The notes beneath the pieces are model-generated. The model worked only from the letters and a program-made list of their open reading frames with translations, did no database searches and was not told where the DNA came from. A DNA stretch of 64,000 nucleotides from Symbiodinium sp. CCMP2592. Lineage: Eukaryota; Sar; Dinophyceae; Suessiales; Symbiodiniaceae. Where the stretch lies: the NCBI GenBank assembly GCA_905221615.1, contig CAJNDT010000485.1, positions 1-64,000 on the forward strand, in the 5' to 3' direction. Positions 31,430 through 51,261 of the stretch are shown one piece after another (position 1 is the stretch's first letter; every line of letters starts with the position of its first letter). Position numbers and translations under genes: made by a program.

Positions 31430-33298
31430 GAAACCCACTTCAGCGAGCTGCGGGACATCGCTGAGGAGGTCACGACCGTCCCGCTTAGTGTGCCGGCACA
31501 ACCGTCAGGCTCAGCAGGGGCCACTTCGTCACTGCCAAAGGCACGTGCCCTTGTCTCCGATGCAGCATCGGCACTCAGTGAAGGCTCTCTCGACTTCGCT
31601 ACTTGCTTGGAGCTTCTAGCGCAGTACTTTTCCATTCCCTTCGCTTCTTCTTCTCACTGCCCCGACAATGCCATTGCAGCCTCTGAAGCATATTTCAATT
31701 TGGGGGCTTTCGCTTTTGACAATGGCTCCAGATCGGGCATCTTTCAGCGTACCGAGCAGTTTTCAGACGTTCTTCGATTCTTGAACGCTTTTATGCAGCT
31801 TCAGTTCCCTGAAGCCTCCTGGAGCTCCCTCTGCGTCAGCCACAACGTTCGCACCCGCTTACACACAGATTCTGGCAACGCTGCAGGGTCTCTGAATCAC
31901 ACAGTTTCACTTGGCAACTTCAGCGGTGGCGAGGTTTGGCTTTGCCCCGCTTTGAACCAGGCGGCTTGTCAGGTACCCGCCCCCTGGGATGCCTCGTCCG
32001 AGGCTCACAGTGCATGTGAAGTGGGTACAGGCGAGGTGCGCGACACTTGGCACGCGCCGCTCTCCTTTAGCTGTGAAGCACTTCACTGTACGCTTCCGAT
32101 ACAAGGAGACCGGTGGGTATTGACTGCCTACACTTGCAAGAGCCTAGACCGCTTTGATGCAACGTCACTGGCACACCTGAGGTCTCTGGGCTTCCCGCTC
32201 CCGCCGGCAACCCCATGCCACCCGCAGTCAATACATCCCCCGCTCAAGGACACAACATGCGTGGAGCTCTTCCTGGATATATGCTGCGGGGCCGCTCACC
32301 CACTTACCACGGCGATGTCTTCATACGGAATCACTTGTCTGCCCATAGATCTACTGGGCGAGGAGCAACTCGACCTGCTCAACGACGACACCTACGACCA
32401 CTTGCTTCGGCTGTGCTTTGCTGGGATTGTCCGCTTAGCTCACGGATCGCCACCCTGCAAGGAGTACTCCCGCTTGAAGCTTCGTCCAGGTGGGCCTCCA
32501 GCCATTCGATCGCCGGATCACATGAATGGTCTGCCAGGGAACACCGCTTCGCAGCAAGCTAGAGTACAAAGCAGCCAGAAGCTTCTATATCGTTGCGTAT
32601 GCCTCCTGAGAGCAGCTTTTTGTTCAGGCGCGCATGTATCCCTGGAACAACCCACTAACGCCATGTCCTGGCTTGAGCCTTTTGTTCAGGACATGCTTTC
32701 CGAAATACAGGCCTCACTGGTCAATATCCCGGCATGTTCAGTGGGACAGGATATAGCAAAATCGTGGCTTTTTGCTTGCAGTTACAGCGAATTCCGCTTT
32801 CTGGCAAGCACATGTTCGCATGCAGGAGGCCACCAGTCCGTCGCAGGAACCAGGGACGAACACGGGACCTTTTTGTCCCAGCGGACGGCGGAGTACCCGT
32901 CCCAGCTTGCCGAGAAATTCTCAGCGAAGGCAGTGCACTTATTTTCTTCGGCAAGACCTGCTTATTCGGTTTCGCCCTGCTCCTTGAAGTTCGCACTGGC
33001 CTCAGTTCCCAAAAAGCCGCGTTCATCAACGCCTACAGCAGCGCAGGATGGCGGGGGCATCTACTCTTTGCCCGACTGGTCACTTGGCCCAAGGTACCAG
33101 TCCGACAGCTTACACGACCTGCGGAAGGAATGGCAATCTTGGCTGCTTCAGAACAGAATTCCTCTCAGACTCCAGCAACACGTTGCCGAAGCCAGCAATA
33201 AACCGCTTTTCTCAACGGAAGAAACAGAGTGGCTTCGCTCTTCTTTCAAGCGCTTTTCGGACGCTCACTCCCCGTGCCGGACTGGAACTTCTCAGTGA
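31430..33298 (+). CDS. 2OG-Fe(II) oxygenase-like + C5-methyltransferase-like N-terminal pol module, element A
   Basis: About 620 residues in phase with gag. The oxygenase-like domain has LHTDSGN (His at 31862, Asp at 31868), a GNFSGGEVWL strand, and a distal His (32084) with Arg eight residues further on (LHCTLPIQGDRW). That is the H-x-D...H-x8-R set of iron/2-oxoglutarate oxygenases, with spacing closest to the prolyl-hydroxylase class. Next comes a methyltransferase-like domain: VELFLDICCG (motif I), GSPPCKEYS (motif IV, Cys at 32456) and SLEQPTNAMSW (motif VI-like). No clear target-recognition region is seen. The frame ends at 33296-33298 and the RT continues one frame over, so element A needs a frameshift here or is damaged. 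Enzyme activity is inferred from motifs. Confidence 0.75.
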   Translation, partial: ETHFSELRDIAEEVTTVPLSVPAQPSGSAGATSSLPKARALVSDAASALSEGSLDFATCLELLAQYFSIPFASSSHCPDNAIAASEAYFNLGAFAFDNGSRSGIFQRTEQFSDVLRFLNAFMQLQFPEASWSSLCVSHNVRTRLHTDSGNAAGSLNHTVSLGNFSGGEVWLCPALNQAACQVPAPWDASSEAHSACEVGTGEVRDTWHAPLSFSCEALHCTLPIQGDRWVLTAYTCKSLDRFDATSLAHLRSLGFPLPPATPCHPQSIHPPLKDTTCVELFLDICCGAAHPLTTAMSSYGITCLPIDLLGEEQLDLLNDDTYDHLLRLCFAGIVRLAHGSPPCKEYSRLKLRPGGPPAIRSPDHMNGLPGNTASQQARVQSSQKLLYRCVCLLRAAFCSGAHVSLEQPTNAMSWLEPFVQDMLSEIQASLVNIPACSVGQDIAKSWLFACSYSEFRFLASTCSHAGGHQSVAGTRDEHGTFLSQRTAEYPSQLAEKFSAKAVHLFSSARPAYSVSPCSLKFALASVPKKPRSSTPTAAQDGGGIYSLPDWSLGPRYQSDSLHDLRKEWQSWLLQNRIPLRLQQHVAEASNKPLFSTEETEWLRSSFKRFSDAHSPCRTGTSQ

Positions 33299-33477
33299 CA
33301 GAAGGCCAGCCATACTGCTTGTCTGCACTGGAGCGCTTGAGTACTATGCTGGGTGACAAGGACACTTCCCTTTTCCCCGCTTTGCAGAAGGGCGTGCCTA
33401 CGGGATTCGACGGCGACATCCCTCGCAGCCACACACTCCGACCTCGTGATCCCAACAACTCAGACGAACCCACTGAC
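33229..33477 (+). pseudogene. Reverse transcriptase, N-terminal part, element A (cut by element B)
   Basis: It overlaps the preceding frame by 70 bp and reads LFGRSLPVPDWNF, then STMLGDKDTSLFPALQKGVP, a region that precedes the RT fingers in DIRS-type pol. Reading is interrupted after codon GAC/GAG/CAG at 33475-33483 by element B and resumes in the same frame at CTG 52189. Confidence 0.75.
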
Positions 33478-33710
33478 GAGCAGTTGTAGACTTGTCTACC
33501 AACCCCTTTTTGCGCGCGAGGCGAGCCACTTGTGGCGAGCTTGCAAAAATCCAAAAAATACCCTAATCCCTATCCCGTGTGCTTTACCTCACCCTAAGCA
33601 CCGGTATTTGGTGTGACCATTTCTTGTGTCGTGCCATTCTGAATGCTTGGCCTATCCGTGACATTCATCTCAAGTGGTGGGGGGGCGGGACCGCCAAACC
33701 GTCTCGACAC
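33478..33710 (+). repeat. Element B split repeat A1
   Basis: 233 bp, from GAGCAGTTGTAGACTTG to GTCTCGACAC. It differs from A2 (41788-42020) by one base seen: AAAAAATACC versus AAAAAGTACC. Confidence 0.95.
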
Positions 33711-34318
33711 AAGTTCTTGACGGGGGTGTGCGGTTAGAGAGCCGTGGAAAGCCTTGGGGCCAGTAGCGTGCATCTAGAAGGTTCAAGAGCTCCTAACGCG
33801 AGGTGCTGTTAGGTCGTGCACGCCGTGTGGTCCCGTTGACCACGGCAGATGGGCATACAGCAAATTCTTTTGCTGGAGGACTGAGCAAAGAGCAGTTGCA
33901 TCTTTAGTAACTTTGCTTAAGGATCCGGAATCACCTGGACCCCGGAGTTGTGATCAAAGGTCAAAGGCGCCTTGCCGTCCTTGAAGGTTGGATGGGGTGC
34001 CTGAGGTCCGGATTTTGTTTGCAGCTTGAATAAGAAAAGTTCGTGTGTGTGCCGATTTTAGGAGTGCCTTCATGTCAACTCACGCTTTGCCGCGAGGGCT
34101 GCTCTGGGAATCAAAGTTCTTGTTTTCTTCAACTGTGAGAGGCCTGACGCTTTCGGTCTTGGGTGTTTGTGCAATTGCTTTAGCACTCAACGACCGTCAT
34201 GCTTGGCTCGTTTGCGAACGGTAGATTTTCCTTGACGGCCTTGTGAGTGACTCTTTGTAATGTAAGTGGCTGCGAAGGCGCCCTCTCTCAGTGGATCAGG
34301 GTATCCCTGTGAGCCTAC
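33711..34318 (+). other. Element B 5' leader
   Basis: About 600 bp between repeat A1 and the recombinase. No protein frame comparable to the small coiled-coil gene of elements A and C. Presumably promoter and leader. Confidence 0.5.
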
Positions 34319-36075
34319 ATGGGAGACGTGCCTGTGGATGCCGCTGCACTTGATGCGCACTTGTCCTTTTGCATCAGATCGAGTCACCAGTCATCTTTCA
34401 GACCTACGTGGGAGACAATTAGCGAGCCCACGAACTTAGTTTTTCGTCTCCCTGCTGCAAGGGGACCGTTGCCGCTGATAGCAGGACCTCGAGCTGAAGC
34501 GGCATCTTCCGGGCCCGGCAGTCAGGCCAAGAGACCGTGTGTGTCAGGAGACTCGCCATTGAAGATGGGCAAACATTGGCACGGGATTTCGTGGGAACAC
34601 AAGCTGGAACGTGAGCTGGTCGCGGGTATTAGGAAGTGGGGTGTGATTATTATGCACTCCCCTCTGAGCTTCGATATCGGCCGGCGTCTGCGAGGTGAGC
34701 ACAGACTTGAACCCCTCATCTTGGAAAGCCTCGGCCACATTTTTGCTGGGAAGGCAGCTGGCACTCTGCATCAGAGGGCTGGTCCGATGCTTAGGTACAT
34801 TCGTTGGAGTGTTCAGGCTGCCATGGATCCTTTTCCCCTTGAGGAGGGGCAGGTATACGAGTTTTGCAAGAGTTGCGAGTTTTCATCTGCCCCAACTTTC
34901 TTGAGGAGCTTCATTGTATCCATATCTTTCTCTGTGCACGTCCTCGGTGTCACAGGTGGAGCCGATTGCTTGCTCAGCGGTCGGGTGACTGGCATAGCGA
35001 GGCTCACCTACCTCGCCAAGCGCAAGAAGACTCGGAGACCGCCACTCACGGTTGCTATGGTGGTTTTCTTGGAGAATCTCGTTTGTGATCCGACTGCCAG
35101 GGCAATTGATAGAATCTGCGCGGGTTTCTTTCTTTGCTTGGTGTTCATGCGAGGTCGGTTTTCAGACGGGATGAACCTTGGAAACCTGCAATTGGACACT
35201 CCAAGTGGTCTAGCCAATGAGGTGGCTGGATACTTAGAAGGAGAGGTTCTACTGAAAGAAAGACGATGCTTTTGCCCATGGTCTGCCCACGCTTAGGTGT
35301 CACAGGACTCGATTGGGCGGGAGTGTGGATGAAGCTACGGGAGCTTCACAAGATGCCGACGGGCAGCGGTGTGCCGCTGCTCCCTGGTACAGGAGCTTCG
35401 GGAGAATGGCTACTCGTGCCACCGAGCGCCACTGTCGCTGCATCCTGGCTTAAGGGCATTCTGAGCAAAGGAGGTTTTGATCACGGGGCCCTCGCCAAGT
35501 TGGGTACCCATTCGTGCAAGTGCACTACCCTCAGCTGGTGCGGGAAATTTGGTCTCGATCAGTCTGTGCGTCGCACACTCGGTTACCACACAGACCGAGC
35601 TGCTGCGATGGTCATTCTTTACTCTCGTGATGAGATTTCCAGTGCTGTGCGAGCTCTGGAGAGAGTCCTTGGTGAAATCAGGGAGGATCGTTTTAGGCCT
35701 GATGCCACTCGGAGCGGACATTTTCCTTGCGAGGTGGCGACGCCCTCAGCAGAGCCCGAGGGTGATCCTCCCGACTATGAATCCAACGGTGGAGCTAGCG
35801 AGTCGGAAGATTCACAGGACGAAGAGGACAACGTTGGTGATCTCGGAGCCGAGGAAAGAGCTCTGGAGGAGATTGGAGCGCCGTGGAGACCACAGGGCGC
35901 TGCCAGTGATCGCCGTATGTTCCGGCACAAACTCTCGAGGATCATTCATTTTGTGGCCGACGAGGCCGGTGCCACTTTTGCATGTGGAACAAAGATCTCT
36001 TCGAATTACGTTGAGATGAACAGTGGAGTTTCCTTTTTGCATCCTTTGTGCAAGAAGTGCCACCCGGTCCGATGA
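34319..36075 (+). pseudogene. Tyrosine recombinase, element B, frameshifted
   Basis: The first frame (34319-35296) carries the core-binding domain and the box I arginine in MRGRFSDGMNL (Arg near 35156). The second frame (open from about 35266) carries THSCKC (H-x-x-K), GYHTDR, and nucleophile Tyr in LYSRDE, then an acidic linker and a conserved C-terminal tail (LSRIIHFVAD, FACGTK, HPLCKKC). A one-base indel just before the ATG at 35266 separates them. The protein would otherwise be about 580 residues and complete. Gene order and motifs match the recombinases of elements A and C, so this is the same gene family with a recent disabling change or a sequence error. Confidence 0.8.
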
Positions 36076-36579
36076 GAGCTGGTTCGGGCTGGACCGGAGT
36101 GGGTTTGGGTTTGTCACATCCAACCCGGTAGAGGAGCTGGTGCGGGCTCGGGTTGGGTGGATGCTGGTGCCTCCACTCGCATGTCGGCTGATTCGGGCCC
36201 GAGCTGGAATTCTGGGCACAGCATCGCATGATACCTTCGATGGCCTTGAAGGATCGTGAGAGTCCTTCTTGGAGACTTGAGTCAGCGCCATGAGGATCGC
36301 TTGGATCCGGGGCGATCTGCCCTTGGCGAAAGGGCAAGACTTTGTGTTGACGTGCTTAGCAGTGACGTGGGTCATGGTGGATCGCAAAGTCTTGTCTTGT
36401 TTGAGCGTCGAGTCTATGGCGTGCAGCAAATACAGGGTCCTGTGATGTGTGCTGCGCGAATGCCGAGTGAAGTGATTACTTTGCTGAGGTGCTGTAGAGC
36501 AACAGTGTGGAGAGGCGAAGCGTAAATACTGCGTGAACAAGTGTGCTTCTCAGAGCTGGCGGAGGGTGTAGTCGTAGCA
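36076..36579 (+). other. Spacer between recombinase and gag, element B
   Basis: About 500 bp with imperfect TCGGGC/GGTTGGGT repetition and no coding frame. Confidence 0.5.
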
Positions 36580-37771
36580 ATGTCGGTCACTGATTCCGCC
36601 GCAAATTTCCGTGCGAGGGCCATCGCGCTGGGTCGACGGGGGTATTGACACATTGGCCAAGTTTGCCTTTTCGTCTTCATACACCCCGGGCGCTCAGGAT
36701 GAGAAGCCTTTTCTTGATTCCATCGCAACTCTTCTGGGTAGGGATGGTAGCGTGGGAGAATTGTCAGTACTTCGACGCTTATTCCATGAATCCTACTCTC
36801 TCACCTCTGCTGAGTTGAAGCAGTCAGTGGAACGTGTCGAGGACGGGCCTGTCAAGAGATTGGCTCAGCCAGACAGGGCCGACCGGTTGGCCAAGCAACA
36901 GAAACGCTTGCCTGGGATAAGCATCCGAGGTCCTCTTGAGCCATCTGATCGACTCGTGGATCGTTGCGTGGCGATCTATGAGGAAAACCGGCTTGTCTAC
37001 GTTGAGCTTTCAGCCTGCACCTCTAAGGAAGATGAAATTAAGCAAGCCACGCTCAAGGAGGACAGGCATCTTGTCGTAGAAAGCGGGGGAAATGTTCGAC
37101 TCAAAGGCCTGGTGAACAACAAGATGGATGCAGACATTTCCTCTGATTTGCTCATGCGGTATGCTCTTACTAGGCGTGGCCTAGCGATGGAGCAAGCGGG
37201 AATCATCTCATATACACTGCATGACGCTTGGACCGAGCAACTGCTCGCGTGCCGTTTCCGAGAACCCCCGACAGGGTACAGCCGCGTTTCCTTGCAACAG
37301 GTCATTCATGCTGACAGGCAATTCTTCATCAAACTTGCCGAGCTCACCCGGGAAGGAATACAGCTTCAGGCGAAGGGTAGGCCATGTGATTTGCACTTCG
37401 AGACAGCTCGCAATCACCCGGATGTGGCGCACCTAATGCAACCCCTTCTTGCAGCGGTGCCTAGACCAGACCCCACATGGACGCCCCGAAAAGGCGACGG
37501 CAAGAACAGCAAGGGAGGTAAAGGTCAGAAGGGCGGTAAAGGGAAGCGGGACACCACTGCCATCACTGCTGCGATGCCTAAGGAGATTGCTGATGGGGGG
37601 TTATCTTTCACGCCTAAAGGGTACGCAATCTGTTGGGATTATAATCTCAATAGATGCAAGCGCAGAGTGACATCAGGAAGGTGCGACAAAGGGTTGCACA
37701 TATGCTGCCGTGCTGGCTGCCTGAAGTCTGGGCACTATTACGGCAACTGTCCGAAAGCAGGTGGTTCTTGA
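36580..37771 (+). pseudogene. Gag-like protein with CCCH zinc finger, element B, N-terminal frameshift
   Basis: The natural start is ATG 36580 (MSVTDSAANFRARAIALG), parallel to MAGVTLDSEAAFKERALKVG in element C. The frame shifts by one base near 36628-36640, after which GGIDTLAKFAFSSSYTPG continues to TGA 37769-37771. The body is clearly homologous to element C gag: SIRGPLEPSDRLVDR versus FSPETTPSHGVVDRLVE, and SRVSLQQVIHADRQFF versus HGVALTQIVAADRHLF. A Lys/Gly-rich stretch precedes CWDYNLNRCKRR...CDKGLH, a C-x7-C-x8-C-x4-H finger, and more Cys residues. It probably binds and packages element RNA. Confidence 0.8.
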
Positions 37772-37774
37772 CTA
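37769..37774 (+). promoter_or_regulatory. TGA-CTA gag-pol stop, candidate readthrough site (element B)
   Basis: TGA CTA G, the context known for efficient stop-codon readthrough in animal and viral mRNAs. The pol frame is in the same phase, with an open 19-codon linker before pol ATG 37829. Confidence 0.6.
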
Positions 37775-37828
37775 GGTGTCTCAGGTCCGGTCGGTTCCAC
37801 CTCCCATCAGGTCGGAGCCGATACAGGT

Positions 37829-40800
37829 ATGAGCGTTGATGCAGCCGGCGGTGCTTCCGCCGAAATCCTTTCACAACAGTTGCTTGAGGCTGACAGGTTG
37901 CCCACTCCAGAGGAGATTGAAGAGCTCGTTAGCCTCTTGCCGCATGGCGAGTTGACCGGCGAACGCCGGAGCAACGCGGACGCTTCTTGCAGTGCATTCC
38001 ATAGCGGTGCTTTTGTACACATCAAAGTGGGATTGCGTCGAAATTGCAAAATCTTCCCAAGCACGACAAAGCTACTATCGAGAATTCTGCGGCATGCCCA
38101 TCCTGGGCATGAATTTACTTCCTTGCTGCTTTCTGTTGACAACCAGACTGCATTGCATGCAGATAGCCAGAATGCCTTCATCCCAAACTTGGTCGTTCCA
38201 CTAAACAGGTTTTCTGGTGGTGGGATTTGGGTGGAATCCGATGTTGGCAAAGAGCGTTTGACAGTCGATGGCCAAGAGCTGCTGGGAACCACCTTGGATT
38301 TAGGGTTAGGCCCCGTAAGATTTCAAGCTAGGGTTCAGAAGCACCTCACCCTGAGTTGGGAAGGTCGGCGAATGGTCCTTATCGGATACTCTGTACAAGG
38401 CGGTGAGATGCTTCAAGACTCGGATAAGGTTGAGCTGGAAGCCTTGGGGTTCGCACTTCCATCGCAGTACCCCGCCACCGGCAACCAGGTGGCTGAGCAA
38501 GCGTGCTTTGCGGACTTCAGGAATGGGACCAGCAGCCCGCCACTTCTTGAGCAAAGGCCGGCATATGATCCACAGCACATCGGCGATCCGTCGAGGAGTC
38601 CAGTGCAAGGGATCGTCATCGAATTGTTTGCTCGTAGTGGTGCCTTGTCTAGGGTTTTCAAACAACATGGGTTTGAGGTTTTCCCAGTGGATCGTGGGGG
38701 GCACAGGCTCCCTTTGTCTAAGTTGTGTGCCCTTGATTTGGCGCAAGCGTCGAGTTGGACCTACCTCGAGGAAGTTCTTGAAACCTACCCAGTTCTTTAT
38801 GTCCACGCTGAGCCGCCTTATGCCACGTTTGGGCCACAGCAGGCGTTTAGGCACCTAGTCAACGGGGTCACGAGCCCCGTGGGAACCGTCGACTCCAAAG
38901 CTGTTGATCGACTCGCTTTAGCTGACTCCATGGTCAACCACTTGTGCACTTTCTTGCAAAGCGTGGACAAACGAGGTATTCCTTGGACCTTGGAACACCC
39001 AAAGGCCAGCCTTCTTTGGAATCTGCCGAATGTGCGGGCTTTGCCTTCAACTTCTGAGGTTGTTTACGATCTTTGTAATTTCGGGTCTGCCCTTAAGCTT
39101 CGCCGCCAACTTAGGACCAATTGCAAGGCTTTAAGGTCCCTAAACTGCTTGTGCAAAGGCGACCATTCGCATGGCCAAGTCGAAGGTGGAGTCGTCACAC
39201 ACCCTCCCGAATTCTGCAAACATGTCGTCCAGGCAATTGCGCGGCACCATGGACTTGCTTGCCCCGACGTGGCTTTGTCATCCACGCCAGCTGGTGTTGC
39301 CCAGCAAAAGAGAGGCAAACCTGAAGCTTCGCTCCTGCCTGAGTTCGGCAAGGTCTTGCAGGTAGATGTCGATCAGGTTCCGCCAGTGAACCACAAGCAG
39401 TGCCTCACTCGCCCGTTGGGCGAGGTGCCAGCAGGATCCAAGCTCATCGCCACGTCTCTTCTCAGGGGTGATGCGGGTGGCGATGCGGGTAACGAGGGTA
39501 AGAAATTTCGCCTTTCTTTAGGAGTCTTTGCCACGCCAGATGAGTTCGTTGATGCGGCCAAAGACTTGCTACATCCTTTTGCTGCTTCGGCTGTTCTGTC
39601 GCCTATCGTGAAAAGGCGTTTGTTTGAGGCCTTGACCAAAGGTCCTGAATGGGTTCAGCGACAACGGTGCTCCAAATTGAAATTGTGGCTTAGCTGGGCC
39701 AAAGAACTGCAAGTTGCCGAAGGAGAAATGAAAGGTAAGCTAGATCCTGACATTGGCCGTGTGCTTCGAGGCAAGCGCTTGTTGCTTCTTAAGCGTATTG
39801 CTGATGATATGGACTGGCCCGACAAGGATTGGTTGGGTGAGCTCTTGGAAGGGTTTGACTTAGTCGGTAGTCAGAAGCACACCGGGGTCTTCAAGCGAGA
39901 GTTGCGACCACAAGCAAGAACTAAGGCGGACTTTCTTGATGCTAGCAAGTTCTTGCGACCGGCACTTCTGGGCAAGGTCGCCTCTGAGGGTCTGAACGAG
40001 CATTCTCAGGAACTCTGGGACAAGACCTTGGAAGAGGTGACGGACGACCTTCTTGAAGGACCTCTGACGCAGGAGGAGGTTCATGCCAGACATGGTGACC
40101 ATTGGGTCCCGGTTAGGAGGTTCCCGGTGGTACAATCTTCAGCGGGCAAGAGGAAGCTTCGACCGATTGATGATTTTTCGGAGAATCTAGTCAACGGTTC
40201 TTTTTCGTATGCCGATAAGATTGACTTACGTGCCCTTGACGAAATCATTGCCATCTGCCGATGCTGGACCCAGGCATGCACTTCAGAACATCAGTTCTTT
40301 TTCGCGATGCCTGAAGGGCCACCGTTGGTGGGCCGTGTCCACCCTCTGTGGGTCAGCGGGGCTTGGGAGCCTTTGCTTACAACGTTCGATTTGAAGAATG
40401 CTTATCGTCAATTCCCATTGTCACCAGGCAGCCGTGCTCATGCGATCATTGCACTGTTGGACCCGAGCAGTCTTGGCGTGGGTTTGTTCGAGTCCAAAGC
40501 GCTACCCTTCGGTAGCACGGCGTCGGTGGTGCACTTCAATCGAATGTCACGTTTGTTTTGGAGGATTGGCCTTGAACTTCACCTGTGGTGGAGCAATTTT
40601 TATGATGACTACCCAGTCATGACGCCAACACTGCTTAAGGATTCCACCATGGCGACTATGATGCTCCTGTCCCAGCTGTTAGGGTTTAGTGCCTCCCTTG
40701 AGAAGTTGGCCCCATTTTCTTCGGTTGGTACGATGTTGGGCGTTGAAGTAGACTGCAGTTCAGCGCCCGATGCGCTCATCCGTGTTCGCAACAAAGAGGG

Positions 40801-41566: not shown

Positions 41567-41599
41567 TCAAAAGGGGCTCCCGTACTGCATTGTTTGGGG

Positions 41600-42357: not shown

Positions 42358-42642
42358 GACACGTTTCCGCTTGCGGATGACTCTTTCCACTAAAACTACA
42401 AGGTTGTTTTATTTGAGGGTAATCCTTAACCCTCAAAATGGCGACAACCGGGAACCGATTGATTGCATGATTTCAAACTTTTAATTTCTGTGTGAAAGCA
42501 TGCTTTTATCACACGAATGATTTTCCCAACCTTCAACGCTTGCATAAAGTGTTCTCTATGCATGTTGAAGTTATGAATGTTTCTATGCACCGACGGTTTT
42601 ACAGATCAAGTGGCATTTCGGGCCACTGAAGAAAAATTTTGT
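42358..42642 (+). repeat. Element C split repeat A1
   Basis: 285 bp, from GACACGTTTCCGCTTGCGG to GAAAAATTTTGT. Confidence 0.97.
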
Positions 42643-42746
42643 GTGGGCTCTCTAGAGGCCTGTACTTCTGTCTAACAGGTCCGAGTCCCCGGTACCTCGG
42701 TGTTGCTCTTAGAGCACCGTGCAAGACTGCCCTGTGGGGCAGTCGG

Positions 42747-43001
42747 ATGGAAGAGGCCTCCCCGGCAGGCCTCGCTGTGTCTGAGGCGTCTGAGCATCCT
42801 AGCAGCCTTTCCAGTTTTGAGGCTGTGTCCAGCCACCTTGCTCGCTTGCAGATTTCGCACGACCTCCTTGAATCTCGTGTCCGCGTGGCCGAGGATCGCT
42901 TGGATTGGTTGGACAGGCAGGCAGCAAGCTCAGCCTCTCGCATCACCTGGCTTGAAACTTTCATTGCGCATTTGCGGCATCTGTTCCGCCGCTTCATTTG
43001 A
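42747..43001 (+). CDS. Small coiled-coil protein, element C
   Basis: 84 residues from ATG 42747 (MEEASPAGLAVSEASEHPSS). The C-terminal 60 residues are heptad-rich (SSHLARLQISHDLLESRV, RVAEDRLDWLDRQ, ITWLETFIAHLRHLF). Same size, position and type as the gene at 25556 in element A. The stop (TGA 42999-43001) is followed at once by ATG 43003 of the next gene (TGAGATGAG), so the second protein could be made by re-initiation. Function unknown. Confidence 0.65.
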   Translation: MEEASPAGLAVSEASEHPSSLSSFEAVSSHLARLQISHDLLESRVRVAEDRLDWLDRQAASSASRITWLETFIAHLRHLFRRFI

Positions 43002-43002
43002 G

Positions 43003-43545
43003 ATGAGCTCTTCTCTAACTGTCGGAGCCCCCTTAACCCGGAGGGCCCTCTGGATGCACAATGCCAGTCAGCCGGACCGTCGCTTCGCCCGCACTCAGGC
43101 GCTGACCTTCGCTCACGCATGTGATCGCTTTGCCATCGACATGCAAACAGCACAGGAGCCTGCAGCGGAGTTGCAGATTCGCTCGGCCTGGGAAACCTGC
43201 TCCGAGGACTCCCTCGGGTTCAGCCAGAGCGGTGAGGTTTGCTCTCCTCGCGATGTGGAAGCTGTCTATGCTTCCTTAACTGACGTGCAGAAGGAGCGCC
43301 TGTGTGGTGACTGGCTCTCGCAATCTGGTGCCACGGTTCTTGTGTGCGCTCCACCCTTCGCGCACCCTTTGGATTCGAGTCTCGACTCCTTCCGTGAGCA
43401 GTTTGCGGCCATTGCAGGTCGCCTCGATGACTTGGAGGGCTTTACTGGCTCTATCATCGACAGCGAGCACCGAGGCTCATTGGTCAGGAGACTTCAGCGG
43501 ATCGAGAGCATGCTTGGAGTTGATCGCTTCGGGCAGCCGGCCTAG
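43003..43545 (+). CDS. Hypothetical element C protein
   Basis: 180 residues starting at ATG 43003, which gives the shortest spacing after the upstream stop. No recognised family. It is mixed helical, with a conserved-looking middle (TDVQKERLCGDWLSQSGA) and a C-terminal coiled-coil-like end (FREQFAAIAGRLDDLEGF, LVRRLQRIESML). No equivalent is visible in element B; element A has a different second protein. It may be a structural partner of the small coiled-coil protein. Confidence 0.6.
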   Translation: MSSSLTVGAPLTRRALWMHNASQPDRRFARTQALTFAHACDRFAIDMQTAQEPAAELQIRSAWETCSEDSLGFSQSGEVCSPRDVEAVYASLTDVQKERLCGDWLSQSGATVLVCAPPFAHPLDSSLDSFREQFAAIAGRLDDLEGFTGSIIDSEHRGSLVRRLQRIESMLGVDRFGQPA

Positions 43546-43821
43546 CCTTTGCCGCTTCTGACCTGTCCCTAACCTGCCTTAGCCGATGCCCCTGTTTCCG
43601 GCGGACCCCTAACCCTAGCTCGTGCCAGCGACTTTTGCAAGGTCGCCTGTTTTCCAAGGACCGGTGCGATTTTGAGCTCGGGAGGACATCGTGCTATGAA
43701 ACTCAGCGCTGTGCCTGCAGTCTCGCATGTTGCTTTGTCAGTTCATGCAAGCTACGCTTCTACGGCTACCCCTTTTCACGAAACTTTTGTTTCAAGCTGT
43801 TGACCCACGCTTTGTGCTGCC
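43546..43821 (+). other. Spacer before the recombinase, element C
   Basis: 276 bp, no supported gene. Confidence 0.5.
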
Positions 43822-46020
43822 ATGGATTCCCTTGCGGCAGATCCCTGTGATACAGGGGGTCAGGCGGCCCAGGAACCTCCGCAAGGATCCCAGGCCGAAG
43901 AGGTCCTCTTGCAGCCAGGGCCCCGCGAGGGCTCTCCCCTTCTAGAGGGCCAACTTGGTGTGGTAAGCCCCGTCTTGGTGGAGGACGAATCAGGCGATCT
44001 TCAGTTCCAACAACACCTTGATGATCTGCTGTCTAGGGCGGGAAGTTCTGCCAGGGACCAACTTGATCGCCAGGCAGCTGAGGACGGCACTTTCGGTGGC
44101 GTCAGTGGCTGGAGTGATCTTGGATCGGAGGCTGAGGAAGCGTGGTACGGCGAAGCTCGTCAACCGGCTAGTGACGATGCCGAGGCTTCCGTCTGGTCTA
44201 TAGTCTACAGTGGTTCCGAGGCTCCAAAGCCCCTGGCTTCACCCATGGATGACAGGGACGTGCAAAGGGTCGCGGCGGAGCTCGAGAGAAAACAGGCAGC
44301 TGAGGCCGTGCCTAAACAAGCTTGGGAACAGCCGGGAAGACTGAGCTATTCCTGGGAAATCAAGCGACCGCTGAAATTGGTGGGGATCCCAGAGGTCGCT
44401 TCATCTTTGGACCCTGAGCCTGAGGACTTGAGGGCAGAGCTCAAGTTAAACCCCATGGTTCGCAAATACCTGGACAGGATGCCTGTGCAGAGATCAGAGG
44501 AGGAAACTAGGTCGCATGCGCTTAAGAATTTGAAGTTCATGATCTTGTTCGACGTGGAGGCGACGCAACTAGGGGTCAGCCTGGCGAGCCTGGTTGGTCG
44601 GGCTGCTGACGAGTCCGAGGTAAAGACATCGTTCGTTGCAGCTTTCCGGTTGAAGGCCACCAGCACGCTTGGCAAGAGAACATCGGCGCTCTTGAAGTTC
44701 TTCCGGTGGGCGCTGAAACGTGGCATACACTCACCGTTGACTTTTAGTGAGCAGCATCTCTTTGACTACATGAAGGTTTTCCAGGACGGCCAAGGGGGAC
44801 CAACGTCGGCTTCCCACTTCCTGGAGGCCCTGCGATTCTTGCATGGGGTCGCCGTCTTGAGGCATGTGACCCTTGACAATTGCATCAGTGCTAGAGTCAG
44901 GGGCCTTGCGGCGGACCTGTACTTGACAAAGGCCCCTCTGAACCAGCGTGATGAGCTCACTCTGAAAATGGTCGTGGCGCTGGAGACGGCGATCGACCAG
45001 GAGGAGGACCGTGATGCTTGTATCATGGGGCAACATTTGTTTTGCCTACACTCGGGGGCGCGGTGGACAGACTCGCAAAGATTGAAGTCCATTGTGGTGC
45101 AACACTCCCATGAAGAAACCTTTGTGATCGCGGAAGGGCTCACTTCGAAGACTTCGAAAACTCAGGAGGCAAAGACCCGTCTGTTGCCATATGCTGCCAT
45201 TGGGTCTGGCGTGAAGCTGCCTTGGGCCAACCGTTGGCTCGAGGCCCGTGAAAACCAAGGGTTGGAGCTCAAGGGATTTGTCTTGCCGGGCTGGTCGGAG
45301 ACAGCCGGGCGATGGACTTCCATGCCGATGCTGGCAGGGGAAGCCACTTCTTGGTTGCAAGACTTCCTCTTGAGAGCGGGCTTCGAGGAGGAAGAAGTGT
45401 TGAAGCGAGGATCTCACTCGCTAAAGGCGACGCTCACTACTTGGACCTCCAGGTGCCCGACGGTGTCCTTTTCTTCTAGTGACCAAAGACTGGTGGGTCA
45501 CCACGTGAAGCCAAAAGACAAGTCACCGTTGATCTACTCGAGGCAAGCTTACACCGCCCTTTACGGCAAGATCCTCGCGATGTTCCTTGACATACGTGAG
45601 GGCCGCTATGATCCGGATTTGCCGGAGGTTGATAGAGTCCTTGCTGCAGCCGCTGAAAACTCGCGTAAGGGGCCAACTGAGCCTAAGGCAAACACGATCC
45701 CTCCCGCAATCGGGCCCCTTGAGGAGGCTAGCGGGGAGGAGGGTGGCTCGTCTTCCGAAGGGAGCGAGGAAGCACTCTCGGGGGAAGACCGAGCCGACGT
45801 GGCGAGAGCACCATTTCAGCAGCCAGTGGACTTGGAACTTGTGTATGTGCACCGTGTGTCAGGAGTGGTGCACTGCCTGAAGGACTCGCAGAGCACGGAT
45901 TTCTTTTGCGGTCGTTTCTTGACCGCGGCGTACATGAAATTCGGAAGGGCCGGAGCGGCAGCAGCAGATCCAGACTGCTGCATTCAGTGCCGAAGGGCCC
46001 GCGACCGGGAGCCCGTTTGA
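43822..46020 (+). CDS. Tyrosine recombinase, element C
   Basis: 732 residues, unbroken. An acidic disordered N-terminus (1-170) precedes a core-binding domain (about 215-340) and a catalytic domain with Arg414 (SGARWTDSQR), H532-S-L-K535 instead of H-x-x-R, H560/H561 (GHHVKPKD) and nucleophile Tyr572 (LIYSRQ). A Ser/Glu-rich linker leads to a C-terminal Cys/His tail (HRVSGVVHCL, FFCGRF, DCCIQCRRA) shared with elements A and B. It should integrate the circular cDNA without target duplication, and this agrees with the clean junctions at 42357/42358 and 52133/52134. Confidence 0.92.
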   Translation: MDSLAADPCDTGGQAAQEPPQGSQAEEVLLQPGPREGSPLLEGQLGVVSPVLVEDESGDLQFQQHLDDLLSRAGSSARDQLDRQAAEDGTFGGVSGWSDLGSEAEEAWYGEARQPASDDAEASVWSIVYSGSEAPKPLASPMDDRDVQRVAAELERKQAAEAVPKQAWEQPGRLSYSWEIKRPLKLVGIPEVASSLDPEPEDLRAELKLNPMVRKYLDRMPVQRSEEETRSHALKNLKFMILFDVEATQLGVSLASLVGRAADESEVKTSFVAAFRLKATSTLGKRTSALLKFFRWALKRGIHSPLTFSEQHLFDYMKVFQDGQGGPTSASHFLEALRFLHGVAVLRHVTLDNCISARVRGLAADLYLTKAPLNQRDELTLKMVVALETAIDQEEDRDACIMGQHLFCLHSGARWTDSQRLKSIVVQHSHEETFVIAEGLTSKTSKTQEAKTRLLPYAAIGSGVKLPWANRWLEARENQGLELKGFVLPGWSETAGRWTSMPMLAGEATSWLQDFLLRAGFEEEEVLKRGSHSLKATLTTWTSRCPTVSFSSSDQRLVGHHVKPKDKSPLIYSRQAYTALYGKILAMFLDIREGRYDPDLPEVDRVLAAAAENSRKGPTEPKANTIPPAIGPLEEASGEEGGSSSEGSEEALSGEDRADVARAPFQQPVDLELVYVHRVSGVVHCLKDSQSTDFFCGRFLTAAYMKFGRAGAAAADPDCCIQCRRARDREPV

Positions 46021-46203
46021 GGCGAGCTTTCGACTACCGAGGAGATCTGGGCCTGTGCCCATCCTCGGGACCCAGTTTTGCCTGTATGCAGTTCCTGCAA
46101 AACATGGTGTGTCGCCCTTAGCCATTGATGTCGCAGAGTTTGCACACATGACTCTTATGTGAGGCACTTGACTCAAGTCACTTAGTGCTAGAGGGTTGCG
46201 AGC

Positions 46204-47409
46204 ATGGCCGGTGTGACGCTGGACTCGGAAGCTGCTTTCAAAGAGCGTGCCTTGAAGGTTGGACTTAGTGCTGCAAACCATGCCATATTAGAGGCAGCAG
46301 GCTACAACACTTTCGGTGCATTGGCCTTCGCGGTCTCAGCCTCGCCCAACAGCGTCAGTGAAGACGAGGTTAAAGAATGGATTCGGGCAGTCTTCACGCC
46401 AGCCCCCGAGCACCACCAGGTTTCCTGCATCAGGCGATTGCTCTTTGAGGCCCAAGCCCTCTCGATCAGTGACATGAAGAATCGAGTGGAGCCTTCAAAC
46501 GACTTTGTCACCAGGAAGATGCCTGTGGCCGAGCGTCTGGCCAGGCAAAAGGCTCAGGAGTCCCGCCTCACTGGGATACACTTTTCGCCTGAAACCACGC
46601 CCTCCCACGGCGTGGTAGATCGACTTGTGGAAATGCTTGAAACCGGCACGCTTGTCTACCTGCCCCCAGGAAAGTACCTCTCGAGGGCACAAGAAATCCA
46701 GTCAGCAAAGGCGGACAAGGCTTTGTCGATTGATTCGGACGGGAACCTCAAGGTCACTTCTAAGCTTGAGAAGTTCGAGAACTGTGACACAGGTTCCGAG
46801 TGGACCCTTCGCCAGGCTTGGGCCCGTAGGAGCCTCGCTTTCGATCTTGCAGGCCTTGCAACTTACCAAGCAATGGAGGCTTGGGTGCACAAGCTTTTCG
46901 TGACGCTTGAAAGGCCTGCTCCTCCTGGTTACCACGGCGTGGCCTTGACTCAGATTGTGGCGGCTGATCGTCACTTGTTCACTCTGGCCGCTTCCAATCT
47001 GCTGGGAGCTCTGGCCGGTGCCCCGGGCCGTGTCAAGCCGGTGGATGAACAGCTTAAGCTTCTTAGTGATCACAGCGATGTGTTGCAGTTTCTCAACCAC
47101 CTGCCTGCGCAGAGCTCGCCTCAGAACCCCTTGAAACGCTCTGAGAAGGGTGATCCGCCCAAAGGTCGAGGCAAAGGCAAGGGAAAGAAAGGCAAGGATC
47201 GTGGGTCCTCTGGCTCGATCACCGTGCCTGACGGGGCCGTCACCAAGGTGAATGATAAACCCGTCTGTTTCGCCTTCAACTGCGGATCCTGCAAGTTCAA
47301 GGTATCGAAGAAGGGCAGGTGCGGGCGAGGCTTTCACCTGTGCTGGTGGAAAGGCTGTGGTGGTGCCCACCCCGGGCACGAGTGCACTAGGGCCCGGAGC
47401 ACTCAGTGA
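46204..47409 (+). CDS. Gag-like protein with CCCH zinc finger, element C
   Basis: 401 residues from ATG 46204. The N-terminal helical region (SAANHAILEAAGYNTFGALA) and the middle (GVVDRLVEMLETGTLVYLPP; GVALTQIVAADRHLF) are homologous to element B gag. A Lys/Gly-rich stretch (RGKGKGKKGKD) leads to CFAFNCGSCKFKVSKKGRC and a following His, a C-x7-C-x8-C-x4-H finger, then CWWKGCGGAHPGHEC. Probable role: RNA binding and particle assembly. The TGA at 47407-47409 is followed in the same phase by pol. Confidence 0.85.
   Translation: MAGVTLDSEAAFKERALKVGLSAANHAILEAAGYNTFGALAFAVSASPNSVSEDEVKEWIRAVFTPAPEHHQVSCIRRLLFEAQALSISDMKNRVEPSNDFVTRKMPVAERLARQKAQESRLTGIHFSPETTPSHGVVDRLVEMLETGTLVYLPPGKYLSRAQEIQSAKADKALSIDSDGNLKVTSKLEKFENCDTGSEWTLRQAWARRSLAFDLAGLATYQAMEAWVHKLFVTLERPAPPGYHGVALTQIVAADRHLFTLAASNLLGALAGAPGRVKPVDEQLKLLSDHSDVLQFLNHLPAQSSPQNPLKRSEKGDPPKGRGKGKGKKGKDRGSSGSITVPDGAVTKVNDKPVCFAFNCGSCKFKVSKKGRCGRGFHLCWWKGCGGAHPGHECTRARSTQ
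47407..47409 (+). promoter_or_regulatory. Gag-pol stop codon, candidate readthrough site (element C)
   Basis: TGA followed by ATC. The same phase stays open for 34 codons up to the pol ATG at 47512. Confidence 0.5.
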
Positions 47410-47511
47410 ATCCCCGCAGGGACCGCGACGCACCCTGTGGATCACCAGTCGTCGCAGTGCCAGGCAAATGTGCTTGCAGAGCCGAGGGGCTCCGCCGTGC
47501 ACCCAGCCGAA

Positions 47512-50500
47512 ATGTTTGCAACTTCACTTTTGGAACTCCCTTCGGCTAGCCGTGTAGACTTGCTGAAGCTTTTTGACCTTCTTCCTCACGAGGATGCGCC
47601 AACTGCCGGACGTGCAGAAGCCGGAGGTTTTTCCTTCGGAACCGGTACTTGGGTGCATGGGAACCTTGTGGGTCTGCGTAACAATTGCCGAATTTTCCCT
47701 TTGAGCACTAGAGTTTTCACTCGATTTATTTTGGAGCAGTGCCCTGGCCACTCTTTCTCAGCAGTGGTCATCCTTGACAGCGTTTGCACAGTCGCGCATC
47801 GCGACACTCACAATATGGAGGCAGCTCAAAATGCCGTTTTCGGGCTGTCCGATTACTCAGGTGGCGAAGTCTGGGTCCAGAATGATCAGGGCCTCACGCC
47901 CCTGGAAGTGAATGGCAAGACGCTTCTGGGAGTTGCTTTGCCAACGCTCCCGGGCCCTGCTGTCTTCTCAGCCAAATCGGCCCTACATGCAACCCTACCA
48001 TGGTCTGGCCGCCGTGTAGTTTTAGTTGCATACACAACAAATTTCATCGACAAATTGTCACCCGCTGATGCCGCCTTCGCTTCCAGTTTGGGCTTTGCCG
48101 CGTGTCAGCATTCTATCCACAAGCTGAGCCGCCAGCCTTTTGCAGTGGAGGTCTTCAGCGGCACCGCCATCCTGTCTCGGGCTTTCTTCGCCGCTGGCTT
48201 CGCCACGCTTGCGGTTGATCACCGCCCGCGCGCCGCTCTCATGCCAACCGTGCGCCTGGATCTCACGCAAGAGAACCAACAAGAGCTACTCATGGACCGC
48301 CTCAGAGCGACCCCGCCTGATGCATTGCATATCGCGCCGCCGTGCGGCACCGCAAGCCGCGCTCGGGAACGCCCTCTTCCCGCCTCGCTGCTTAAAAAAG
48401 GGGTTCGAGAGCCTAAACCTTTGCGATCCTCCCGCCACCCCTTGGGACTGCCTGGCCTTGACCAGGCGTCCCCGCAATACCGACGTGTGCAGCAGGCAAA
48501 CTGCCTGTACCTCTTCACCTTCAACCTGGTCTGCTGGGCGCTCGAACACGCGGTGCCTTTCACGCTTGAGAATCCTGCTAACAGCCATTTCTGGGCGGTT
48601 TTTGCTGCTCTGGCCCGCGCCCGTCCTGAGTCCTCTTGGCACCGCTTCAGCCACAGAACCCTTCAGGTGGAGTTCGATCATTGCATGTATGGAGGCTCTA
48701 GGCCCAAGACCACACGTTTGCTCACGAATTGCAAGCAAATGGCAGATTTGTGTGCACGTTGCGATCACTCGCATGATCACGCCCCCTGGGGGGCTCAGCG
48801 GGGGCCGCATGGCTGGATCTTCGCCACTCATCTTGAAGCTGCTTATCCCGTGCAGCTTTCGCAAGCCTTGGCCGCTCGATTCGGCGCCCATGCCGAGGCC
48901 TCCGGCCTCCATCTCTGCCCACGCCCGCTGGACATGCAACACGCTGCCTTGGCGGCGCAGGGCCTGCAGCATAGGAAGAGCCAGCCTCTCCTTTCAGAGT
49001 TTGCGACCATCCAGCAAGTGCCCAAGTCAAGCTTTGATGAGTCGTGCATGAGGGTTCTCTCGGCCCCAATGATTGGGGTGAAGACGGGGGACCTGGCGAA
49101 ACCCTCTGACCTGGTGCCTTTGGGTGATGATGCGCGCTCGAAGCCTAGTACGGGTGACCCTGACCCCTCACTTGGCTCTTCTGGTTTAGTCCCTCACCCC
49201 TTGCGTGACCCAAAGCTGCCCGCGGGAAACGAGCTTGGAGCAGGGTCAGGTCTGGTCACAGTTGGGGTTTATCGTAGTCCCGAAGTGTGGGTTAAAGAGG
49301 CCCTTAAGCTGCCCCATCCTATGGATTCGAACAATCCTTTGCATGAGGCCACCTTGACGGCCATAAAGGAAAATCTCACTTCGGAGGCTAAGGTTCTTAA
49401 GCTTAAGCAAAAGATTGCCTTGACAAAGATGGAGATACGGGCCAAGCAGCTTGAACCGCAGGAAAAGGCTCTGCATGAGTCGAAGCCGCCTTGGATGCAA
49501 AAAGTCCTTCGGGGAAAACGCATTCTCTTGCTGCGTGATCTCTTGTCGCAGCATGATTTCGACGACATGGGAGTCGTGGACCTAGTGAGCGACGGCTCAC
49601 ACTTGGTGGGGTCCGCTCCGAAGCCTGACTGCTTCGAGACCCGCATCAGACTTGCAAAGCTCTCGCCCGATGCCCTGAGGGCAGCAGCCCCTGACTTGAG
49701 GCGTGCGATCCTTGCGAATCCCAGGAGAGTCTCGATGGAAGAGGCTCAGGAGCTGCGGAAGATCACTGATGAGGAGACGGCGGAGGGCTTCCTCTCGGGA
49801 CCATTCGAGTCCGAGGAAGCGGTTTCCCGCCACCTTGGGACCCAGGATTGGGTGGCCGTGAGAAGGTTCCTCATTGAGCAATCTGACAAGAAGCGTCCCA
49901 TAGATGACGGCCATGAAGCTCATCTTAACGATGCTTACGGGACGGCCATCCGGTTGAGGCTTCAAGACAGCGCTTATTTCACAGCCATGGCACTGGCTGT
50001 GGCAAGGATGCAAAGAGATTTGGCTGTGCACGTCCCTTGGAAGGTCAAATGCCTGGACTTGTCAAAAGCTTATAAACAATTTTGCGTAAGCGAGCGGGAT
50101 AGGTGCCTTTCGGTTATAGTCATCTTCGATGAAAAGGGGAAGCCCACCTGGTATGTGGCGAACGCCTTAATGTTTGGCGCCGCTGCCAGCGTTTTTAGCT
50201 TTAACCGTATAAGCCGTGCCATCCACTTCTTGTTCACGAAAGTCTTGAACGTGGTGTGCTCGTACTTCTATGATGACTACCCGATGCTGGCTCGCGAAGA
50301 CATGGCTGAGGCTACCGACGAGGCGTGCGGCCGCATGCTGAGTCTGCTTGGCATTCGATATGCCGAGACAGGGGCAGGTTCCAAAGGCTTACCTTTCGAT
50401 GCTTCTTGCAGTGTCCTAGGACTAAAAATGTGCGTGGAACGGCTCCACCTTGGAAAGCTCTCGATCTCCAACAAGCCGGGAAGGATCGAGCGGCTGGTGG

Positions 50501-51261
50501 AGATGTTTAGCAAGGTCAAAGCCGAAGGGTCGATAACAAAGCATTTTGGCCAAGTGTTGCTGGGGCTGCTGCGTTTTGCGGCAGGCTCCTGTGTGGGCAT
50601 GTCGCTAAATCACATTTGCGCTGACTTGAATAGGATAGTTCACGCTGAAGCTTTTCCGTCTCCTGAGGAGTTCGCGAAGCTGTGCGATCGGGCTTTGGAG
50701 TTTCTTGGCAGTGCTCGTCCACGAGAGGTGGCACTTTCTGATCGCAAGGAGGTGGTACACGTCTTCACTGACGGATCTCTTGAAGGCGATTTCGCAGGCA
50801 TAGGAGCCGTGCTGATCGACTCGGCCGACGGCTTCACGCGGGTGTTGCAAGGTGAGCTCCCGCCCGAGCTCAAAGAAGCATGGCGAAACGAAGCAAACGA
50901 GCACTTGATCTGCCAAGTCGAGTTGTTTGCAATCTTCTGTGCAAAGCTTGTGTGCAGGGAGCGCTTGGAGGGCAGGAGAGTTGTCTATTGGATAGACAAC
51001 GAGCCTGCTCGCTTGGCCCTTGTGAAAGGCGTGAGCAAGTCGATGATCATGGATCGCATGTTGCGCGAGCTGTGCCGCTTGGAGGACAACAGAGTCTCTT
51101 ATGCGTGGTACGCTCGAGTACCGTCGAAATCCAACATTGCAGACGGACCCTCAAGGGGGAGAGGCGATGAGGTGGCCAGAGCTCTGGGCATTGCGTGTGC
51201 AGAGGTGTTCCCGAAGAACATTCCGTGGCAGCACTTGTTATGGGGGCAATCGGGTGCTTAG
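47512..51261 (+). CDS. Pol: oxygenase-like + methyltransferase-like + RT + RNase H, element C
   Basis: 1,249 residues from ATG 47512; the frame is also open upstream to the gag stop. Oxygenase-like: H96-R-D98 (AHRDTHN), YSGGEVWV, H159 with Arg168 (LHATLPWSGRR). Methyltransferase-like: VEVFSGTAILSRAFF (from 212), IAPPCGTASRARE with Cys278, FTLENPANSHFW with Glu353, then TRLLTN and CARCDHSHDH. Reverse transcriptase: KRPIDDGHEAHLND near 795, KCLDLSKAYKQF, ALMFGAAASV, FYDDYP with Asp921-Asp922. RNase H: Asp1087 (FTDGS), Glu1137, Asp1162 (WIDNE), Asp1211 (IADGPSRG). All expected residues are present, so this is the best reference copy. The last codons run into repeat B1. Substrates of the first two domains are unknown. 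Confidence 0.92.
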   Translation: MFATSLLELPSASRVDLLKLFDLLPHEDAPTAGRAEAGGFSFGTGTWVHGNLVGLRNNCRIFPLSTRVFTRFILEQCPGHSFSAVVILDSVCTVAHRDTHNMEAAQNAVFGLSDYSGGEVWVQNDQGLTPLEVNGKTLLGVALPTLPGPAVFSAKSALHATLPWSGRRVVLVAYTTNFIDKLSPADAAFASSLGFAACQHSIHKLSRQPFAVEVFSGTAILSRAFFAAGFATLAVDHRPRAALMPTVRLDLTQENQQELLMDRLRATPPDALHIAPPCGTASRARERPLPASLLKKGVREPKPLRSSRHPLGLPGLDQASPQYRRVQQANCLYLFTFNLVCWALEHAVPFTLENPANSHFWAVFAALARARPESSWHRFSHRTLQVEFDHCMYGGSRPKTTRLLTNCKQMADLCARCDHSHDHAPWGAQRGPHGWIFATHLEAAYPVQLSQALAARFGAHAEASGLHLCPRPLDMQHAALAAQGLQHRKSQPLLSEFATIQQVPKSSFDESCMRVLSAPMIGVKTGDLAKPSDLVPLGDDARSKPSTGDPDPSLGSSGLVPHPLRDPKLPAGNELGAGSGLVTVGVYRSPEVWVKEALKLPHPMDSNNPLHEATLTAIKENLTSEAKVLKLKQKIALTKMEIRAKQLEPQEKALHESKPPWMQKVLRGKRILLLRDLLSQHDFDDMGVVDLVSDGSHLVGSAPKPDCFETRIRLAKLSPDALRAAAPDLRRAILANPRRVSMEEAQELRKITDEETAEGFLSGPFESEEAVSRHLGTQDWVAVRRFLIEQSDKKRPIDDGHEAHLNDAYGTAIRLRLQDSAYFTAMALAVARMQRDLAVHVPWKVKCLDLSKAYKQFCVSERDRCLSVIVIFDEKGKPTWYVANALMFGAAASVFSFNRISRAIHFLFTKVLNVVCSYFYDDYPMLAREDMAEATDEACGRMLSLLGIRYAETGAGSKGLPFDASCSVLGLKMCVERLHLGKLSISNKPGRIERLVEMFSKVKAEGSITKHFGQVLLGLLRFAAGSCVGMSLNHICADLNRIVHAEAFPSPEEFAKLCDRALEFLGSARPREVALSDRKEVVHVFTDGSLEGDFAGIGAVLIDSADGFTRVLQGELPPELKEAWRNEANEHLICQVELFAIFCAKLVCRERLEGRRVVYWIDNEPARLALVKGVSKSMIMDRMLRELCRLEDNRVSYAWYARVPSKSNIADGPSRGRGDEVARALGIACAEVFPKNIPWQHLLWGQSGA

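Follow-up and report, generated by a model that had tools for sequence, protein, structure and literature searches.

The stretch of DNA analysed here (the window) comprises 64,000 nt of contig CAJNDT010000485.1 of Symbiodinium sp. CCMP2592, and it contains three DIRS-like retrotransposons, named A, B and C, nested one inside the other: B lies within the Pol open reading frame (ORF) of A, and C within the 3′ repeat of B. Self-alignment revealed in all three the split direct repeats (A-coding-B-A-B) of DIRS-like elements. In each, a tyrosine-recombinase-like ORF comes first, followed by one that is Gag-like and carries a CCCH-like knuckle, and then by Pol. Within Pol, an oxygenase-like domain and a methyltransferase-like (MT) domain precede reverse transcriptase (RT) and RNase H; in element A, this ORF is interrupted by element B (31430-33298, then 52183-54006). 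The Pfam family RVT_1 was found in 24 of 31 Pol proteins, those of B and C among them, in keeping with the RT/RNase H of DIRS-like elements; the matches of A, B and C all stay below the cut-off (Table 1). The tyrosine recombinases are putative, indicated by pattern motifs and, in element C, by a Phage_int_SAM_1 match at E 0.42; the corresponding ORF of element A gave no Pfam match.

The initial annotation had pointed to H-x-D, SGGxxW and H-x8-R motifs, followed by a Rossmann-like segment, upstream of RT/RNase H in the three Pol ORFs. All of these are present, the first three motifs at the start of Pol in A, B and C, and in A and B both blocks score far above chance (see below). The jelly-roll that it anticipated is confidently predicted: the AlphaFold2 model of the element C oxygenase (predicted local distance difference test, pLDDT, 95.5; predicted template-modelling score, pTM, 0.91) is a double-stranded beta-helix that matches TET2 and other 2-oxoglutarate (2OG) dioxygenases. 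Human TET2 ranks first in Foldseek (5.9e-6), by a small margin over NMAD-1, ABH2, 6n1f and ALKBH5 (1.3-1.7e-5), and the TM-scores to TET2, by query length, are 0.43-0.50. In VIA-align, the lists of which show only part of the 2OG families, so that absence from them carries no weight, a Burkholderia 2OG oxygenase (6n1f) scores 11.6, TET2 11.1, NgTet1 10.8, AlkB 10.0 and CcTet 9.6, while the identity is 21% over 171 residues for TET2, 18% for a Shewanella oxygenase and 10-14% for 6n1f, NgTet1, AlkB and CcTet. Since the fold rows are nearly tied, though identity to TET2 is highest, we regard the predicted fold class, 2OG/Fe(II) dioxygenase, as firm and the leaning towards TET as moderate.

Profile searches, which had been proposed at the outset, gave repeated matches to Pfam Tet_JBP (PF12851; curated cut-off 34.9 bits), all below the cut-off (15.1-29.6 bits with hmmscan). 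Element C matches it at E 7.6e-6 (25.7 bits) with the whole Pol and at E 4.7e-7 (29.6 bits) with the domain alone. The family appears at E <= 1 in six of 25 diverse oxygenase domains, no other Pfam family being found in more than one of them, at E <= 0.1 in just two of the 31 full Pol proteins, and in seven of 10 chosen further proteins, mostly near kin of C; a newer precomputed Pfam release assigns it to four of 30 proteins. When the oxygenase profile was run against PDB sequences, TET2 emerged only at E 0.91, after two unrelated rows, with HRDLHNM in TET2 aligned to HRDTHNM in C at the HxD motif. No PDB match was obtained with phmmer for the N-terminus of C, and in PHROGs only one of the 25 domains matched anything. 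The oxygenases of A and B are recognised by profiles from which A-like rows (three) or B itself had been removed (scores in Table 1), the best shuffled sequences reaching 3.4 and 2.8, respectively (for each profile, the A and B ORFs were shuffled 400 times).

The domain occurs at E <= 1e-3 in 104 of 188 collected proteins; once 25 matches that do not span HxD to Arg are left out, 79 remain, of which 73 retain all four catalytic residues (H, D, H and R). An HxD…H triad, a C-terminal 2OG Arg and a predicted beta-helix, the structural marks of TET/JBP enzymes, are found together. The domain shares fold, triad and 2OG Arg with TET2, NgTet1 and CcTet, along with an aromatic residue at R+6 (78/79), and it resembles TET2 and NgTet1 in carrying Asn/Asp at D+3 (76/79; the D+3 residue is Asn). 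The equivalents in human TET2, Tyr1902 and Asn1387, are described as contacting the target base, D+3 Asn/Asp doing so at N4 of 5-methylcytosine (5mC), a position where CcTet has Gly (PMC11040006). What weighs against a TET assignment is position R+8: the His/Arg reported to contact base O2 in TET2, NgTet1 and CcTet (PMC11040006) is mostly replaced, most commonly by Cys (38), Val (12) or Thr (10 of 79), and the domain is therefore called TET-like, not a TET. It further differs from these three enzymes by its C-terminal neighbour, usually a methyltransferase, and by its place inside a retrotransposon Pol. When shorter proteins related to the oxygenase were sought, with host genes within the search, 30 were returned; no host gene was identified among the three inspected, two of which lead into an MT domain and one of which carries Gag sequence, and judging by their sequences they look like element fragments.

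For the second domain, the element C model (pLDDT 92.5) confidently adopts the Rossmann fold of C5-cytosine methyltransferases, the fold found in all 50 Foldseek rows listed; a Dam-like identity was rejected, as the fold is C5. Pfam PF00145 matched none of 24 MT domains at E <= 1 and none of the 31 Pol proteins at E <= 0.1; hence, the domain is C5-methyltransferase-like by sequence and a C5-methyltransferase by predicted fold. Fourteen of the 24 domains weakly match phrog_757, “DNA methyltransferase”, in PHROGs (best 1.9e-6), NCBIfam gave no family for three proteins, and a scan of viral contigs with the MT alignment yielded 14 pattern matches and no relative. An MT profile built without A, P0048 and B scores B at 46.7 bits (A: see Table 1), the best shuffled sequence reaching 3.7. 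The initial annotation had ascribed PPC and ENP to all three elements: PPC (motif IV) is found in A and C, with EPPY in its place in B, and ENP in C alone, A having EQP and B EHP. The catalytic Cys of motif IV is present in 120 of 120 aligned MT domains, A and C included (B was left out of this alignment, its match being in two pieces), while in family B a Tyr replaces it in 10 out of 10 copies examined. We take the EPPY of this family to resemble an amino-methyltransferase motif.

The arrangement is by no means unique to this locus. In the Symbiodinium sp. CCMP2592 genome (1.1 Gb searched, 5383 contigs), there are at least 88, 90 and 85 matches to the N-termini of A, B and C, respectively, many in long open frames; these counts are lower bounds, overlap one another and include partial matches. 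Among 158 proteins (120 + 34 matches listed, A, B, C and P0121), the order oxygenase-MT, which the initial annotation proposed to look for elsewhere, occurs in 60 and the order MT-oxygenase in five, while 84 have the MT only and nine the oxygenase only; the “only” classes include shortened ORFs. Two proteins, P0151 and P0152, keep oxygenase and RT and have no recognisable MT. The modules are therefore separable: MTs occur without an oxygenase, oxygenases beside a Cys-less or eroded MT, and the order can be swapped. Oxygenase-bearing elements are scattered over an RT tree built from 116 proteins (29 oxygenase-MT, four MT-oxygenase, 83 MT only), and this, together with the many matches in the genome, suggests that the combination is probably old and mobile between elements rather than an accident of this locus. 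B and C, initially taken for a pair, fall into different deep clades; A has no place in the tree, as the RT profile recovered, at the required length, none of the 14 A-family or A-like proteins checked.

In families A and B, the two for which copies were compared, both domains are under purifying selection. The ratio of non-synonymous to synonymous substitution rates (dN/dS; given as the median over pairs whose dS exceeds 0.3, which are not independent of one another) was estimated from 17 of 20 A loci (L012, L016 and L017 were left out) and 10 of 20 B loci. In family A, the oxygenase gave 0.122 (17 copies compared in 91 pairs) and the MT 0.049 (57 pairs); over 11 colinear copies, the values are 0.127 for the oxygenase, 0.049 for the MT and 0.055 for RT, the oxygenase being under weaker constraint than RT. 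The family B oxygenase gave 0.167 (six pairs) and the MT 0.075 (24 pairs), despite the missing catalytic Cys. Young A copies display an excess of CpG transitions (15/196 vs. 22/679; Fisher p 0.014), to which we give no weight since it is absent in family B (1/156 vs. 11/605).

A single stop codon separates Gag from a Pol in the same frame: TAG in A (31427-31429) and TGA in B (37769-37771) and C (47407-47409). In family A, it is TAG in 17 of 18 loci examined (L016 and L017 left out) and CAG in one; in family B, TGA is followed by CTAG in 10 of 10, and TGA-CTAG is a classic leaky stop context. The first Met in the Pol of element A does not occur before residue 122, inside the oxygenase, and a Gag-Pol fusion through the stop is therefore the simplest reading. 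The conservation of the stop among copies of both families suggests expression of Gag-Pol by stop-codon readthrough.

The junctions of element C within the 3′ repeat of B bear short sequences (GACA at 42358-42361 and 51535-51538; AACA at 52134-52137) that would fit site-specific recombination with no duplication of the target. Elsewhere in the window, a 500-amino-acid ORF (3540-5042, plus strand) encodes a separate, conventional C5-methyltransferase (Pfam DNA_methylase, 4.3e-25), and a 287-amino-acid ORF (10250-11113, minus strand) resembles a tyrosine recombinase/integrase by eye.

Table 1. Features of the nested elements A, B and C (positions in the window; residues are those of Pol).
Feature	Position	Strand	Basis
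Element A, outermost, split by B at 33477/52189	25347-54779	+	self-alignment 100%
Element A repeats	A1 25347-25450, A2 54302-54405; B1 54078-54302, B2 54555-54779		self-alignment 100%
A tyrosine-recombinase-like ORF	25843-28458	+	position; GHH/YSR motifs by pattern
A Gag-like ORF, CCCH-like knuckle, closing TAG in frame with Pol	29594-31429	+	
A TET-like 2OG/Fe(II) dioxygenase domain, residues 53-257	31586-32200	+	93.3 bits to profile without A-like rows; motifs
A C5-methyltransferase-like domain, residues 277-509, PPC and EQP	32258-32956	+	73.9 bits, profile without A and P0048
A Pol remainder: RT (RVT_1 52588-52872), RNase H region	52183-54006	+	RVT_1 E 3.2e-4, below cut-off; YVDD
Element B, inserted in Pol of A, 3′ repeat split by C	33478-52188	+	
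Element B repeats	A1 33478-33710, A2 41788-42020; B1 41600-41787, B2 42225-42361 plus 52134-52188		
B tyrosine-recombinase-like region, in two frames that overlap in this copy	34313-36075	+	YSR motif, second frame
B Gag-like ORF, closing TGA (context TGA CTAG) in frame with Pol	36578-37771	+	
B TET-like dioxygenase domain, residues 40-229	37889-38458	+	173.7 bits to profile without B; motifs
B methyltransferase-like domain, residues 277-485, no catalytic Cys (PPY), EHP	38600-39226	+	
B RT (RVT_1 residues 868-957), RNase H region (TDGA to ADAPSR)	40373-41491	+	RVT_1 E 0.0033, below cut-off; motifs
Element C, innermost	42358-52137	+	
Element C repeats	A1 42358-42642, A2 51535-51819; B1 51242-51538, B2 51841-52137		
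C tyrosine-recombinase-like ORF	43804-46020	+	Phage_int_SAM_1 E 0.42; GHH/YSR motifs
C Gag-like ORF, closing TGA in frame with Pol	46192-47409	+	
C TET-like dioxygenase domain, residues 42-231	47533-48102	+	Tet_JBP below cut-off; pLDDT 95.5; TET2 first in Foldseek
C C5-methyltransferase domain (predicted), residues 240-499, PPC and ENP	48127-48906	+	model pLDDT 92.5; fold matches
C RT (RVT_1 residues 879-963), RNase H region (TDGS to ADGPSR)	50044-51156	+	RVT_1 E 0.012, below cut-off; motifs

Components of this system are already known: C5-methyltransferases in Symbiodinium DIRS Pol, a TET/JBP-type enzyme in fungal DNA transposons and an ALKBH5-like oxygenase in orchid Gypsy elements. The Dam-like methyltransferase of classical DIRS elements sits after RNase H. 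Such elements, with a Dam-like N6-adenine methyltransferase, are cited by de Mendoza et al. (2018, PMC5890265); they resemble the present ones in having a DNA methyltransferase of their own in a DIRS-type element and differ in enzyme class. The same paper reports C5-methyltransferases, found via PF00145, in the Pol of Symbiodinium DIRS elements in two domain orders. As described there, SymbioDIRS-Dnmt3 shares with our elements the DIRS-like A-coding-B-A-B layout, a C5-methyltransferase and RT in one ORF, a separate tyrosine recombinase (putative in our elements) and the two domain orders; the present MTs differ, as far as descriptions can be compared, in being missed by PF00145 (0/24). Neither “oxygenase” nor “TET” occurs in the main text of that paper. 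Our own PF00145 search for the published elements gave 124 matches, and two places were inspected. One (L045, G000:C5004) carries a 1204-amino-acid ORF with a PF00145 methyltransferase, otherwise of low complexity, and an adjoining second ORF, with no RT seen by eye; it is possibly another methyltransferase-bearing element. The second runs into a stretch of Ns.

Fungal carriers of a TET/JBP-type dioxygenase are likewise mobile elements, but they are described as DNA transposons and Helitrons (Kojima 2025, PMC12730594), unlike the retrotransposons presented here. The orchid Ty3/Gypsy elements (PMC9289625) also combine a retrotransposon with an added 2OG dioxygenase; theirs is of the AlkB type, a recent acquisition of an N6-methyladenosine (m6A) RNA demethylase, and the part of that paper drawn on here mentions no methyltransferase in the same element. 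A literature search that covered few subscription journals or preprints found neither a TET-like domain in any retrotransposon nor an oxygenase plus C5-methyltransferase in one Pol. The combination had been called undescribed in the initial annotation; within the scope of that search, this holds for the oxygenase together with the C5-methyltransferase, while the C5-methyltransferase in Symbiodinium DIRS Pol had been published.

The presence of the two domains, their predicted folds, the conservation of catalytic residues, the selection on them, their wide occurrence and their separability are directly supported by the data above. They hint at elements that modify DNA chemically, be it their own or that of the host. 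TET-like and C5-methyltransferase enzymes both target position 5 of pyrimidines. From the position of the domains with RT in Gag-Pol, this chemistry and the presence of both 5mC and 5-hydroxymethyluracil (5hmU) in the host, we infer a nucleic-acid substrate and newly made cDNA as the target; readthrough expression and a benefit to the element are inferred as well. The likeliest reading, though about as easy to doubt as to believe, is that the module modifies new cDNA to resemble host DNA and so to escape recognition or silencing. Gag-Pol would hold, between Gag and RT, a DNA-modification module of a TET-like dioxygenase and a C5-cytosine methyltransferase. The former would probably hydroxylate the 5-methyl group of a pyrimidine (5mC to 5-hydroxymethylcytosine, 5hmC, or T to 5hmU). 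As a minor Gag-Pol product that arises from stop readthrough and travels with RT, the module could act on cDNA that would then resemble host DNA, with its default CG methylation and abundant 5hmU. CG hypermethylation is reported to be the default in Symbiodinium (PMC5890265); 12% of T is 5hmU in S. microadriaticum (PMC11071213), and in Breviolum, 5hmU is enriched in multimapping reads. For SymbioDIRS-Dnmt3, cDNA mimicry of host DNA had already been proposed, for 5mC alone.

Separability suggests that 5mC from the neighbouring MT is not a necessary substrate of the oxygenase. An obligatory 5mC-to-5hmC tandem was rejected on this ground, and the coupled write-and-erase pair suggested by the initial annotation is not required, as the two domains occur and decay independently. 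With more doubt than belief, we can also picture Pol as a complete pyrimidine-modification workshop, made by readthrough and carried with RT, from which the cDNA would receive 5mC, 5hmC and/or 5hmU before integration, and whose modules would be shuffled and independently lost in an arms race within a host lineage in which 5hmU is reported to be enriched in repeats.

The main rival to cDNA mimicry, in our view unlikely, is that the oxygenase reverses silencing by oxidising 5mC that the host has placed on chromosomal copies or at the target site, the MT having a separate role. The TET-like fold and the Asn at D+3 would suit such an eraser, and the oxygenase persists beside the Cys-less MT of family B and the eroded MT of P0151 and P0152; it thus need not act on the element’s own methylation. 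In Symbiodinium, transposable elements reportedly show an enrichment of CH methylation, which most of the transcribed copies, 10 of 15, lack (PMC5890265), and the TET-bearing fungal transposons, for which this role has been proposed, are an analogue (PMC12730594). However, CG methylation in Symbiodinium is described as a default state, alike on genes and transposable elements and without local regulation (PMC5890265), and 84 of the 158 relatives (an upper bound, some being incomplete) keep the MT without an oxygenase.

Methylation and/or oxidation of the element’s RNA genome or tRNA primer seems improbable to us. Among PDB sequences, the MT profile matches DNMT2 best (E 0.0068). The retrotransposon-borne ALKBH5-like oxygenase is reported to be a functional RNA demethylase (PMC9289625). 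Entamoeba EhMeth, a Dnmt2-type enzyme, ranks second in Foldseek, but DNA methyltransferases make up most of the MT rows in either fold list.

We put little faith in a domain of the prolyl- or asparaginyl-hydroxylase type with Gag or a host protein as its substrate. H-x8-R, the spacing of PHD2, occurs in 72 of 75 oxygenase domains scanned (79 in all), one domain of 25 matches Asp_Arg_Hydrox (E 0.0069), and P4H and PHD folds appear lower down in the Foldseek and VIA-align lists; the first place of TET2, the recurrence of Tet_JBP and the HRDLHNM/HRDTHNM resemblance all speak for TET instead. The simple prolyl-hydroxylase kinship of the initial annotation, drawn from the H-x8-R spacing, was rejected, as sequence and, slightly, fold lean to TET. 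That one or both domains are structural relics, non-catalytic folds aiding Gag-Pol assembly, is most improbable, for even though the family B MT is under selection without its catalytic Cys, a scaffold would need neither the intact oxygenase residues nor the invariant MT Cys.

Retrotransposons with DNA methyltransferases of their own would seem to work against themselves. A TET-like oxidase beside the MT in one polyprotein, likewise under purifying selection, makes the reason for keeping such enzymes a testable question: do these elements write a mark or convert it, or do they counterfeit the modified DNA of their host?

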